Shown in pieces: positions 1,640-63,900 of a DNA stretch of 64,000 bases. The translations under genes were made by a program, and so were the position numbers. Below the pieces are notes generated by a model. The model saw nothing but the letters and a program-made list of their open reading frames with translations, searched no databases and was not told the origin of the DNA. How positions within the stretch are numbered: position 1 is the stretch's first letter; each line of letters starts with the position of its first letter. The DNA comes from Caulochytrium protostelioides. Taxonomy: Eukaryota; Chytridiomycota; Caulochytriomycetes; Caulochytriales; Caulochytriaceae. Where the stretch lies: NCBI GenBank assembly GCA_003615045.1, contig ML014156.1:60188-124187 (forward strand), written 5' to 3'.

Positions 1640-2018
1640 AATTTTTGAGGCCGGCTTCTACATCGTATTGTTTTCGGGTCAGTTCCCAGCTGTCGATCTG
1701 GCCGTGGGGCCACTCCATCATAGAAAGAAGATGCTGATTCTGCCAGCTCCCGAAGATGCTGTATTTATTCAAGCTCTCTGCCAAGGACACTCTGTATTGG
1801 GGACGGCCTTTGGGGTAGGCACGTCGTCCGCCATCTTGCGCTCGAAGTGCACGCATACGCTGATGCCGCCGGGGTTCACCGCAAGAAGCCCCATTAAGTG
1901 GGACTGACCGGCATACTGATGTGTCACGGTCGCGACATCCGCTTTCACGGGCAGAGTGGACACGGTCGTGTCGATCTCGCATCCAAGGCGGGCGCCCTCC
2001 CGGCCGGGTCGACGGCAT
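1640..2018 (-). pseudogene. Fanzor copy A, N-terminal half through RuvC-I, decayed
   Basis: On the minus strand this holds the segment upstream of RuvC-I (GGISVCVHFER, about 1880-1850) and the RuvC-I region itself (about 1780-1640), recognised by collinearity with copies B and E: HGQI then LTRKQYDVEAG aligns with KGQI then LSRKQYYVKVG. The catalytic Asp of the D-P-G motif kept in B and E is gone (GSWQNQ at the place of DDPGRT), so this half cannot be active. It ends near 2018, where the element continues on the opposite strand. Fanzors are eukaryotic TnpB relatives: RNA-guided nucleases carried by transposable elements. Confidence 0.72.
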
Positions 2019-2019
2019 T

Positions 2020-2228
2020 CAACTGGGTCACCCGGTATGAATGCCCAGACACATGTGGTCCTGACACCCGGTCAACTCCAGCGCCAGGAGACCGTGGTCT
2101 GAGGATTGCTGTGGTGTGATGCCTCCAACGACAAGTTGGTGAACCGCGATCTCAATGCCACGTTGAACATCCGACGCTGCATGGCCTTGCCCGTCAGATC
2201 GAAAGTGATGTGCCGCAGCCCGGAGTAA
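2020..2228 (+). pseudogene. Fanzor copy A, zinc-finger/RuvC-III C-terminal part, decayed
   Basis: Plus strand, opposite to the N-terminal half. In one frame it reads GLLWCDASNDKLVNRDLNA followed by TLNIRRC and a stop at 2226-2228. The W-C...(V/F)(N/D)RDLNA(A/T)xNIxRC block is the last RuvC motif of TnpB/Fanzor proteins together with the end of the zinc ribbon. A TGA at 2100-2102 replaces the Arg codon seen in copy E (RGVLWC), and the CPDTCG half of the zinc finger lies in another frame, so both a nonsense change and a frameshift are present. Confidence 0.75.
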
Positions 2229-2370
2229 ACCAAGTTGCAACCCAAAAGCGTCAAGCTCATCCGACACTGAACCAAAATGCTCGGTGCCTCGGTGTGGGAC
2301 CCTTTCGGGGCACCACGGAGGGCATGGTGTGCGTGTTAGGTAGCGGAGGGTGCGCCTCTATGTCTTCGTT
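2229..2370 (+). ncRNA. Candidate omega-RNA/3' end module of Fanzor copy A
   Basis: Follows the Fanzor stop directly. It shares with the other copies a GCTCATCCGA block (2254-2263), a GGGCACCACGGAGGGCATGG block (about 2309-2328) and a terminal hairpin-like AGGT...GCGCCTCTATG (2337-2361). Similarity between copies stops just after this hairpin, as expected if the RNA scaffold ends there and the flanking DNA supplies a guide. It is called an RNA by position and comparison only. Confidence 0.5.
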
Positions 2371-15450: not shown

Positions 15451-15484
15451 AGTACGAAGGTATGAAGAGATATATTTTTAGGAA

Positions 15485-15631
15485 CGTATAAGCTCTCCCT
15501 TGAGACGACCTTATACGAACATCATACCCTCCCTGATGCCCCCTAGGTGTCCCCCATGGAGGCAGTAGGGCATTTGGTGTATCGCCCGCCGATCACGGGC
15601 TGCAGGGGGGCTAGCCCGGGGTTGGGGCACA
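15485..15631 (-). ncRNA. Candidate omega-RNA/3' end module of Fanzor copy B
   Basis: Minus-strand 3' region of copy B. Its end is a strong hairpin: an outer 8-bp inverted repeat CGTATAAG/CTTATACG (15485-15492 and 15510-15517) around an inner TCTC/GAGA stem (15494-15497 and 15502-15505) with a 4-base loop. Next to it is the block shared by all copies (GGGCATCAGGGAGGGTATGA on the minus strand, about 15540-15521), then CTGCAGCCCGTGATCGGCGG. Outer-stem bases differ from those of copies C and E but still pair. Confidence 0.55.
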
Positions 15632-16058
15632 GGGCTTCATCTCCGTGGCCGCCCCCTTAGCGACGCGGCTCGTGAACTGGGCAAACACGCGCTGCTTGCC
15701 GCTATATAGCCCTAGGCGCTGGCGCGCCCAGCGCGGCTTCAGGAAGTCGGCTCACAGCGGTTCGTACGTGGCGAGCCACACCTCTAGGTAGCGGTGGTAC
15801 GCTACCTATGCCTTGGATACTGACCACTGACCGCCGCTGCAGCGGCTCCTCGAGACCGCTCTGTCAGGTCTCTGACTGCTTTTGGGCGGCTTTGATGCCG
15901 ACTTTCACATAGTACTGCTTTCGGGACAGCTTGCTGCTGACAATCTGGCCTTTGGACCCCACCATGGCCATAGAGAAAATGTTGGTTCGGCCCGGGTCGT
16001 TCCCGATGATGCTCATCCAGACCGCTCGACGGCTTCCAAGTCCCGACACGGTACCCAC
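15632..16058 (-). pseudogene. Fanzor copy B, internally deleted, RuvC-I retained
   Basis: Minus strand. Reads IIGNDPGRTNIFSMAMVGSK followed by GQIVSSKLSRKQYYVKVG: the RuvC-I D-P-G motif with catalytic Asp and the following Tyr-rich strand of Fanzors. Downstream come KAAQKQSETW, then (other frame) LEVWLATYEPL with a TGA at 15752-15754 where Trp is expected, then SGKQRVFAQFTSRV. At 15632 the copy jumps straight to the 3' module, so the rest of RuvC-II, the zinc finger and RuvC-III are deleted. Positions 15632-16012 match 35736-36116 in copy E with five mismatches. Upstream (16059-16294) a degenerate frame may be further N-terminal sequence. Confidence 0.8.
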
Positions 16059-26412: not shown

Positions 26413-26652
26413 TCACCCGTGAAGATTCACCCATGAGAGGGTCCAGCACGATGACCAAGGGGACCCCTCAAGTGCCCACACCGGCTCGTACGTGGCGAAC
26501 CACATCTCCAAGAATCGATGATGCGCGGTGGGCGTTGTGCCTTTGAAGCTCACCTCCGTGAGCTGCTGCAGCGACTCCTTGAGATCGCGCTGCCAAGTCT
26601 CTGACTGCCTTTGGCCTGCTCCGATGCCGGCTTCCACATCGTACTGCTGGCC
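26413..26652 (-). pseudogene. Fanzor copy D, fragment after RuvC-I
   Basis: Minus strand: QQYDVEAGIGAGQRQSETWQ, then a helical segment and FLEMWFATYEPVW. This aligns with RKQYYVKVGIKAAQKQ...ETWQ and LEVWLATYEPL of copies B and E, keeping the Trp they have lost, so D stems from a different, older copy. The D-P-G motif itself is missing; the match ends at about 26652 next to inverted 3' sequence. Confidence 0.7.
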
Positions 26653-26689
26653 ATGCAGGTCACATCAACAGCGCTATACCGCCTCCCAC

Positions 26690-26815
26690 GGACAAGCCCC
26701 CCTGCGGCTCGTAGTCGGCTCATCCGATGATAAACCGAATGCGCTACTGATTCTGTAAGGGATTCCCGGAGGGCACCAGGGAGGGTATGGTGTTCGTGTT
26801 GAGTAAGGATTGGCC
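26690..26815 (+). ncRNA. Candidate omega-RNA/3' end module of Fanzor copy D
   Basis: Plus strand, inverted relative to the copy D coding fragment. Shared blocks: CTGCGGCTCGTAGTCGGCTC followed by ATCCGATGATAAACCGAATG (26703-26742), then GGGCACCAGGGAGGGTATGG (26771-26790) and TGTTCGTGTT. The terminal hairpin is poorly kept (TTGGCCTATCTT). A 26-base A tract follows at once. Confidence 0.45.
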
Positions 26816-29071: not shown

Positions 29072-29110
29072 ACGTGACATGCGAGTGTCACGTATGTTTT
29101 CAGAACATAC
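29072..29110. repeat. Two adjoining perfect hairpins beyond the end of Fanzor copy C
   Basis: ACGTGACA/TGTCACGT (29072-29079 and 29086-29093, loop TGCGAG) abuts and overlaps by two bases GTATGTT/AACATAC (29092-29098 and 29104-29110, loop TTCAG). The second touches the terminal hairpin of copy C. Confidence 0.9.
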
Positions 29111-29228
29111 AGGCTCTCCCTTGAGACGACCTGACACGAACGCCATGCTCTCCTGGGTGCATCCGAGATGTCCCCTGATTTATCGTTTTATCGCCGGATA
29201 ATCCTGCCGACCACGGGCTGCAGGGGAG
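29110..29228 (-). ncRNA. Candidate omega-RNA/3' end module of Fanzor copy C
   Basis: Minus strand, downstream of the copy C stop. Terminal hairpin: outer CAGG/CCTG (29110-29113 and 29130-29133), inner TCTC/GAGA (29115-29118 and 29123-29126), same loop as copy B but with a different, still paired outer stem. It also shares the block that reads GCACCCAGGAGAGCATGGCG on the minus strand and CTGCAGCCCGTGGTCGGCAG next to the coding end. Confidence 0.6.
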
Positions 29229-29420
29229 CTAGCTCGGGGATGCGACACAGCGCTGTCGGTCTGCAATGGCCAGACAGCGATAAATGCTCAACGCGGCATT
29301 GAGATCACGGTCTACGAACTCTCTGCACGGCCGATACAGCGTCAGGCCCACTCGTCCCCGCCGCCGCGATCGGCGATGTTGGCGTGGGCGAGGACAAGGA
29401 TGGGAACGAGACGGCACAGA
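29229..29420 (-). pseudogene. Fanzor copy C, RuvC-III fragment
   Basis: Minus strand, uninterrupted to a stop at 29229-29231: GLTLYRPCREFVDRDLNAA then LSIYRCLAIADRQR. The D-R-D-L-N-A-A motif is the final RuvC motif of TnpB/Fanzor with its catalytic Asp intact, the best-kept version in the window. Upstream sequence (to about 29537) stays open but no longer aligns, so only the C-terminal end of the nuclease is present. Confidence 0.75.
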
Positions 29421-35139: not shown

Positions 35140-35147
35140 TGTATTCA

Positions 35148-35300
35148 TAGGCCCACCCTAGCCGACCTAGGCCCTTCCCTCCATGGTGCCTCCTAGGGTT
35201 CCCTTGCAAAAAAACAGTCCGCATTCGGTTCATTGTCGGATGAGCCTACAGACCATGGGCTGCAGGGGGGCTAGCTCGGGGGATACGGTATAACGCTATC
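35148..35300 (-). ncRNA. Candidate omega-RNA/3' end module of Fanzor copy E
   Basis: Minus-strand 3' end of copy E. Terminal stem TAGG/CCTA (35148-35151 and 35166-35169) is a third paired variant of the outer stem. Next come GGCACCATGGAGGGAAGGGC, a run of seven A on the plus strand (35208-35214), and CTCATCCGACAATGAACCGA, then CTGCAGCCCATGGTCTGTAG (all given on the minus strand). Confidence 0.55.
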
Positions 35301-36177
35301 GGTCTGTGAATGGCCAAGCAGCGTCGGATGTTCGACGCGGCATTGAGGTCACGGTTCACAAACTAGCCGTCGGTGATTTCACACCACAGCACACCTCGAA
35401 CCATGGATCCCTGTCGTTTCTCGGATTTCTGGACCACATTCGTCTGGGCATACACGCGGGCCCTGGGGACCGGGTTGACCGGCGTCGGCGCGGTCTAGGG
35501 GGCTCCAGCCTAGGACGCGCGAGACGTCGGCACGACCGCCATCTCGGATTTTTATCTTGGTCAGGATCTCATCCGTCTCGGCATGCACCTAGGTCGTCCG
35601 AATCTCGTCGACCAGAACGGTGCGGAAACGCTGAGCCCACACTTTGTATGCCCGAGCTGTAAAAACAGAGATATCGCCCGTGCCCCCAGGGGCAAACTTA
35701 GATGCGCTATAGGCGATCACCACCTCAGTGACCACGGGCTTCATCTCCGTGGCCGCCCCCTTAGTGACGCGGCTCGTGAACTGGGCAAACACGCGCTGCT
35801 TGCCGCTATATAGCCCTAGGCGCTGGCGTGCCCAGCGCGGCTTCAGGAAGTCGGCTCACAGCGGTTCGTACGTGGCGAGCCACACCTCTAGGTAGCGGTG
35901 GTACGCTACCTATGCCTTGGATACTGACCACTGACCGCCGCTGCAGCGGCTCCTCGAGACCGCTCTGCCAGGTCTCTGGCTGCTTTTGGGCGGCTTTGAT
36001 GCCGACTTTCACATAGTACTGCTTTCGGGACAGCTTGCTGCTGACAATCTGGCCTTTGGACCCCACCATGGCCATAGAGAAAATGTTGGTTCGGCCCGGG
36101 TCGTCCCCGATGATGCAGTACTGATCCAGGCTGTTTGCCGAGGGGTTCTCGGTCTGACTGGTGCTGTCTGCCAGCAC
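35301..36177 (-). pseudogene. Fanzor copy E, most complete nuclease remnant
   Basis: Collinear on the minus strand: CIIGDDPGRTNIFSMAMVGS (RuvC-I, Asp kept), KLSRKQYYVKVG, LEVWLATYEPL, SGKQRVFAQFTSRV, VVIAYSASKFAPGGTG, RTVLVDEIRTT (the D-E-x-R-T block of Fanzors), VHAETDEILTKIK, CPDECG, RGVLWC and FVNRDLNAASNIRRCL (RuvC-III). Lesions: TGA at 35856-35858 (Trp in copy D), a frameshift near 35900-35950, TAG at 35589-35591 (Gln in copy F), a frameshift between CPDECG and RGVLWC, and TAG at 35363-35365. It is therefore a pseudogene that still shows the full domain order. The sequence upstream of RuvC-I differs from that of copy B. Confidence 0.85.
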
Positions 36178-37778: not shown

Positions 37779-38150
37779 AGGTCTCCCCCTGGAGACGACC
37801 TAACGCGCGGCGTTATGGCCATCGGTTCCCGGGATTTCACGTTGGTCAGGATCTCATCAGTTTCGGTATGCACCTGGGTCGTCCGAAACTCGTCGACCAA
37901 GACGGTGCGGAAGCGCTGGGCGCCCGTCTGGTACGTTCGAGCTGTTGGAACGGCGTTCTTGCCCTTGCCGCCGGGGCCAGGGCGAGATCCTCAAACTCGG
38001 ACGCGCCACAGGCGAGTCCCCCCGGGCTTCATCTCCGGGGCCGTCCCCGCGACGACGCGCTGCAAGAAGTGGGCGAACACGCGCTGCTTTTTGTTGTACA
38101 TGCGGTTTTTGGATATGAAAGATGTATGCTTGCAATAGCGCTGCGCCTGA
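37779..38150 (-). pseudogene. Fanzor copy F, RuvC-II fragment fused to the 3' module
   Basis: Minus strand: RMYNKKQRVFAHFLQRVVAG then TAPEMKPGG, and in other frames RFRTVLVDEFRTTQVHTETD followed by EILTN. It keeps the Gln codon that is TAG in copy E. At about 37825 the coding part is joined directly to the distal 3' module, deleting the zinc finger, RuvC-III and the proximal module. The terminal hairpin is strong: GTCTCC/GGAGAC (37781-37786 and 37791-37796), with AG/CT below it. TAACGC/GCGTTA (37801-37806 and 37810-37815) adds a second small stem. Confidence 0.75.
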
Positions 38151-63827: not shown

Positions 63828-63900
63828 AGGAGATGCGGGGTATCGATCCCCGTGCCTCGTGCATGCTAAGCGCGCGCTCTACCATGTGAGCTACATCCCC
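63828..63900 (-). tRNA. tRNA-Ala (anticodon AGC)
   Basis: Minus strand, 73 bases including the discriminator, no intron. Acceptor stem GGGGATG/CATCTCC (one G-T wobble), D arm GCTC...GAGC, anticodon loop TTAGCAT, T arm CGGGG-ATCGATA-CCCCG. The B box (GGGATCGATACCC) and the G3:U70 wobble, the identity element for alanyl-tRNA synthetase, are present. Oddities: the third pair of the anticodon stem (CGCGC/GCACG) is a C-A mismatch, and the discriminator base is T instead of A. Confidence 0.93.

Follow-up and report, generated by a model that had tools for sequence, protein, structure and literature searches.

According to excerpts of the published accounts, the omega RNA of the Spizellomyces punctatus Fanzor SpuFz1 comprises a 75-nt scaffold, located between the stop codon and the right-end repeat, and a 14-15-nt guide, and the right-end inverted repeat in Spizellomyces forms part of this RNA (PMC10432273). 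Both SpuFz1 and PpFz1 are described as having a stem-loop, SL1, then one further stem, and then the guide (PMC11423790). A terminal stem replaces the pseudoknot in Fanzor1 guide RNAs, and a TDG motif lies in the WED domain of the protein, in the portions of PMC10711439 that cover these features. Fanzor1 families are reported from chytrids, and 3'-overabundant copies from Chlamydomonas, in the corresponding parts of PMC3627910; sections of PMC6784888 were also consulted for comparison. A full-text literature search combining Caulochytrium and Fanzor found no publication.

Here, we analyze a hairpin (SL2) in a 64,000-nt stretch of the genome of the chytrid Caulochytrium protostelioides (contig ML014156.1; hereafter, the window), which contains six copies, A to F, of a dispersed repeat. 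We judge it likely that SL2 and a larger neighboring hairpin, SL1, are the remains of a Fanzor1 guide-RNA scaffold in which SL2 was the last stem; the hairpin was probably part of an RNA that once guided the enzyme. In a living ancestor, the transcript would have started at the Fanzor stop codon or just ahead of it, folded into SL1 (basal stem, long stem, and apical hairpin) and SL2, and continued past SL2 into flanking DNA, such that its flank-derived 3' end could direct the Fanzor1 nuclease to matching DNA. We infer transcription, protein binding, and guide use from this arrangement, which has the omega-RNA hallmark of a structured region at the 3' end of the gene, ahead of flanking DNA.

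The initial annotation placed the hairpin at the 3' end of a nuclease gene, and our analysis bears this out: the gene is a decayed Fanzor1 gene on the minus strand. Translations of copies B and E contain TnpB/Fanzor-like pieces (GNDPGRTNIFS; VNRDLNAASNIRRC) that are split across frames. A piece from another copy in the same genome (L083) retrieved 51 homologous proteins (E ≤0.01, among 8000 scored candidates), including a Caulochytrium protostelioides protein that is 73% identical across 35% of the query. When solved structures were searched with single sequences, no Fanzor match resulted and a profile was needed; built from 28 environmental homologues, it matched the solved Fanzor1 proteins of Parasitella (2.2e-17) and Spizellomyces (1.1e-10) and, weakly, Guillardia (0.036). 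The RuvC residues (D in DPG, E in DEFRT, and D in RD) are invariant across the 28 homologues, and their consensus includes the TDG motif of the WED domain; this motif is decayed in the near-full-length copy L084, and the window copies lack the region that carries it.

The zinc-ribbon CxxC between DEFRT and RD is missing in 27 of the 28 homologues (alignment A3; 15 by script, 12 by eye), the exception being P0050. Pfam family PF07282 had no match in the genome, and P0038 alone passed its cut-off among five homologues scanned (P0001, P0002, and P0005 were sub-threshold), results that fit the missing CxxC. The window copies belong to this Fanzor1 clade, which is mostly without the zinc ribbon but keeps its catalytic motifs. 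Pfam held no family for the L083 piece; a match of the L042 piece was sub-threshold and unrelated. A search for viral relatives was likewise discarded, as none of the 26 pattern stretches checked encodes one. Separately, the Caulochytrium database protein P0009 begins within the Fanzor C-terminal half and runs on into unrelated sequence; it is perhaps an annotated fossil or an exonized piece.

All copies in the window are decayed. Copy B, on the minus strand, carries SL2 at 15490..15513 in the family register (set by the register test, within a match to model R1 at 15488-15569, 78.4 bits), SL1 with its basal stem at 15518..15569, and a coding remnant at 15570..16020 that reads from the RuvC-I piece GNDPGRTNIFS to the C-terminus. 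An internal deletion near 15632 joins these two parts, and RuvC-II and RuvC-III are missing. The copy B tail (15472..15486, minus strand), where the match to a profile of 22 hand-chosen copies ends, holds a short A-run in the RNA sense (a plus-strand T-run at 15475-15479). Copies C, E, and F are also minus-strand. Copy C retains part of SL1 and SL2 (29108..29175, 61.8 bits) next to a C-terminal Fanzor coding remnant (29183..29320). The copy E module (35147..35205, 21.5 bits, E 3.8e-5) has a different SL2 inner sequence, and its decayed Fanzor1 coding sequence (35224..36143) presents RuvC-I, DEIRT, and NRDLNAA motifs in three different frames. In copy F, the module at 37782..37820 (16.3 bits, E 0.0016) adjoins a Fanzor1 coding remnant at 37842..38089. 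Copy A lies on the plus strand, with a Fanzor1 coding remnant at 1644..2276 and a module at 2285..2342 (48.4 bits; SL1, with SL2 diverged). Copy D is rearranged (26474-26804): its plus-strand module (26745..26804, 36.4 bits) likewise has SL1 and a diverged SL2, and its coding remnants (26474..26744) are oriented as in copy B over 26474-26648 and oppositely over 26644-26744.

Other features of the window and its repeats were noted in passing. Copies B (15632-16012) and E (35736-36116) are 98.7% identical over 381 bp, far closer than other copies, which suggests a recent local duplication or conversion. Short TCAGACC-like repeat units occur in the linker before RuvC-I (L084:1890-2010; window 36130-36160), and alignments are broken there. 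Rfam models identified a tRNA gene at 63828-63900 on the minus strand and nothing else in the window.

The family extends across the genome (20.9 Mb, 337 contigs). A 29-mer of RuvC-III DNA had 339 matches with up to 3 mismatches (none for the reversed control), a 112-aa piece had at least 154 (150 of 580 candidates scored), and P0001 had at least 95 (70 of 1182 candidates scored). No whole-protein match was among those listed for P0001, though an intact copy is possible because introns were ignored and most P0001 candidates were unscored. In the near-full-length copy L084, residues 2-620 are represented by four pieces, with stops. The module follows the stop codon: the majority sequence has a TGA ~90 nt before the end of SL2, a TGA occupies the corresponding place in seven of eight coding-anchored copies (as judged by position), and the homologue P0001 terminates at matching residues.

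The hairpin of copy B is present on the minus strand at 15485-15517, and the letters originally quoted for copies B, C, E, and F occur at their positions. Taken alone, the copy B hairpin folds far more stably than shuffled sequence (z -4.85); modules C and E are at shuffle level (z -0.16 and +0.21, respectively), and fold energies overall were mixed, with z from -1.4 to +0.3 in six of 13 stretches. The SL2 core is a dispersed repeat, with 118 genome matches to TCGTCTCAAGGGAGA at ≤2 mismatches versus five to the reversed pattern. From such matches we fetched 70 loci, removed by eye 13 that had no resemblance outside the motif, and left out 3-mismatch matches and a second L078 match (the L029 locus) before counting. 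The resulting 58-copy set is biased toward the SL2 core through which it was selected, a bias from which the coding-anchored set (eight copies with an exact RuvC-III match) and loci L003-L008 are free.

The initial annotation took different but pairing bases in copies B, C, E, and F as compensatory change, and it is this part of its case that fails. In the copy B stem (CGTATAAG/CTTATACG), the 3' arm begins by pairing with the base two positions upstream of the core; in C and E, unlike copy B, its first base pairs with the base immediately upstream, a register offset of one. Because the registers differ, the comparison among B, C, and E is not between homologous pairs. More copies did not rescue the claim. 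Outer stems of ≥4 bp were found in 18 of the 58 copies versus 17.8 expected when halves were swapped between copies, and no outer or inner SL2 pair rose above shuffles, p being no lower than 0.15 for standard pairs and 0.09 for Watson-Crick pairs. A wider alignment (A4) gave weak signals, namely one inner SL2 pair at p 0.024 and a whole-SL2 covariation score matched by 22 of 500 shuffles. The TCTC/GAGA core is missing in all eight coding-anchored copies, and SL2 is swapped wholesale between subfamilies, one alternative form (TTAGGT-N3-AGGATGGGCCTAT) having 35 matches against 0 for its control. The hairpin is real, and the compensation claimed for it is not.

These results also bear on the strength of the copy B stem, which is very likely a chance product of decay without a function of its own, with only the weaker family hairpin ancestral. 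The stem is among the strongest in the set, as its z score attests. Yet copy B is alone among the 58 copies in having the shifted register at 8 bp (0.21 expected by swapping), and perfect 8-bp arms with loops of 3-30 nt occur 125 times in the 64-kb window, so that an 8-bp stem is by itself unremarkable. This explanation is limited to copy B and is compatible with SL1 and SL2 being a Fanzor1 omega-RNA scaffold.

Support for an RNA comes instead from SL1, which lies between the TGA stop codon and SL2 and was absent from the initial annotation. SL1 consists of a basal stem, a long stem (TGCCTC-GTGG/CCAC-GGAGGGCA), and an apical CCCC/GGGG. Our sequence-only model, with which A4 was built, matched 87 times in 67 sources, including all six window copies; module matches were missing in L004 and L007, two of the six loci found by mid-coding DNA. 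Pairing was found in 80.3% of 1195 SL1 cells versus 76.8 in shuffles, and double-changed cells numbered 58 versus 37.3 (sd 4.4), a value reached by none of 500 shuffles. The covariation score was also beyond all 500 shuffles (0.112 versus 0.088, sd 0.005), with slid versions at ≤0.049; double-change pairs (13 versus 11.2) and pair types (39 versus 38.0) were unexceptional. The clearest pairs were an apical C-G/A-T (33 and 11; p 0.0015), a stem G-C/T-A (24 and 6; p 0.003), and a basal G-T/T-G/C-G (17, 10, and 5; p 0.0005).

SL1 thus covaries, though the changes mostly follow subfamily divisions and a few subfamily events may explain them. In tests on a 67-row tree built from coding sequence, one to two independent SL1 pairs were supported each time, below sign-test power, and repeated compensation in SL1 is unproven because tree-independent pairs are too few. 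Column identity in SL1 (0.79-0.80) is not above that of coding sequence; duplicate rows were dropped from this measure and from the SL1 pair counts. Locus L072 folded into three clean stems. We conclude that SL1 probably represents genuine RNA structure. The original proposal of a candidate omega RNA therefore stands in part, carried by SL1 covariation and 3' position, with no contribution from compensation in SL2.

Sequence beyond SL2 tells a similarly divided story. Similarity between copies had been described as ending just past the hairpin, where a guide would start. Mean column identity does fall past SL2, from ~0.80-0.86 to 0.55, but subfamilies have a further 25-50 nt in common, containing another hairpin and then often an A-run. 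One subfamily tail shares ACGAGC-loop-GCTCGTTAAAA, and another shares GTATGTTCTTAAAACATACGT and more. In such subfamilies, a guide would not have started straight after SL2; any flank-derived guide would begin after the shared tail. The exact end of the scaffold would fall either after SL2 or after the further hairpin of the subfamilies. Generic stems in the 58 tails numbered 16 at ≥5 bp (9.8 expected) and 4 at ≥6 bp (2.7 expected), and the third hairpin is therefore clear within subfamilies only. The tail pattern CACGAGC-N5-GCTCGTTAAAA was uninformative, with 10 matches and one in the control.

The shared 3' end might alternatively be the tail of a retroposed Fanzor transcript, with 5'-truncated, A-tailed copies made by a LINE-type reverse transcriptase and the hairpins serving as a 3'-UTR or reverse-transcriptase signal. 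Copies have sharp 3' limits and graded 5' coverage, as expected under this model. Among 17 copies with 3.5 kb upstream and a protein match, 16 begin at scattered residues between 318 and 581, none below 300 (the other, L040, has a protein match downstream only), and the sequence upstream of the core is shorter than 100 nt in 10 of 56 copies. A-runs of ≥5 occur within 10-60 nt in 26 of 56 tails versus 2 of 56 at 200-250 nt (T-runs, 5 of 56), and one subfamily has its last hairpin followed by 4-9 A. The genome contains 19 reverse-transcriptase matches, some below cut-off. Against retroposition, the P0001 search turned up many N-terminal pieces, and no target-site duplication was detected (≥9 common bases in two of 55 copies; null 1.2%), a comparison with little power in decayed copies. 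The same 3'-overabundance in Chlamydomonas Fanzor elements was ascribed to Helitrons by Bao and Jurka, in the sections of PMC3627910 that treat it; Helitron_like_N had 0 matches in this genome, and control genomes gave no match either. Retroposition of the copies is possible, but we consider it unlikely that it accounts for the shared 3' end.

It is very unlikely, in our assessment, that SL2 and the next hairpin are instead DNA-level transposon ends (a site of transposase binding or folding), with the 3' ends shared through DNA transposition and no guide RNA. Further inverted repeats do mark the common 3' limit (ACGAGC/GCTCGT in one subfamily, TATGTT/AACATA in another). However, L084, the sole near-full-length copy read and the only one in which terminal inverted repeats were sought, gave no inverted match between its 3' end and its 5' region (score 19 versus shuffle means of ~17.6; p 0.25 and 0.35), target-site duplications were not above those of swapped flanks, DDE_3 (the single family searched) had 0 genome matches, and the covarying pairs are within SL1, well inside the 3' limit. 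Transposon ends and an omega RNA may also coexist, since the right-end inverted repeat of Spizellomyces belongs to its omega RNA. A long shot is that the clade, having lost its zinc ribbon, spread through the genome when its own transcripts were reverse-transcribed, the scaffold doubling as a 3' copying signal and the A-tailed, 5'-truncated copies, down to bare scaffolds, inserting next to new DNA and so serving as ready-made guide-RNA genes with new guides.

The preferred reading, a Fanzor1 omega-RNA scaffold, adds a large, mostly decayed family of chytrid Fanzor1 elements whose RNA module is defined and whose hundreds of copies make scaffold pairing testable by comparison. The missing zinc ribbon raises the question of minimal nuclease size, and the A-tailed, 5'-truncated copies that of how Fanzor elements spread.

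Among described systems, the family resembles SpuFz1/SPu-1 of Spizellomyces punctatus in its chytrid host, its Fanzor1 kinship (1.1e-10 by profile), and, as far as PMC10432273 describes it in the parts cited, the placement of a structured RNA region at the element's 3' end, immediately past the stop codon. According to these same parts, SPu-1 carries inverted repeats at its two ends, its scaffold measures 75 nt, its genes are full-length, and SpuFz1 has a zinc finger; in the Caulochytrium family, the single element examined yielded no inverted 5' copy, ~90 nt separate the stop codon from the end of SL2, all copies read show decay, and the clade is mostly without the cysteines. Of the solved structures, PpFz1 of Parasitella parasitica matches the profile best (2.2e-17), and its omega RNA, in the sections of PMC11423790 that describe it, similarly places only one more stem, SL2, between SL1 and the guide, although its SL1 is 7 bp and the SL1 described here is longer and has an apical hairpin. 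Chlamydomonas CRe-1, CRe-2, and CRe-3 also have many 5'-truncated copies with intact, hairpin-bearing 3' ends, and the relevant portions of PMC3627910 tie them to Helitron2 ends, whereas the family described here has no demonstrated Helitron kinship and its tails are often terminated by A-runs. The anatomy of the Caulochytrium module matches the known kind of Fanzor1 omega RNA: it is ordinary in kind and useful in detail.
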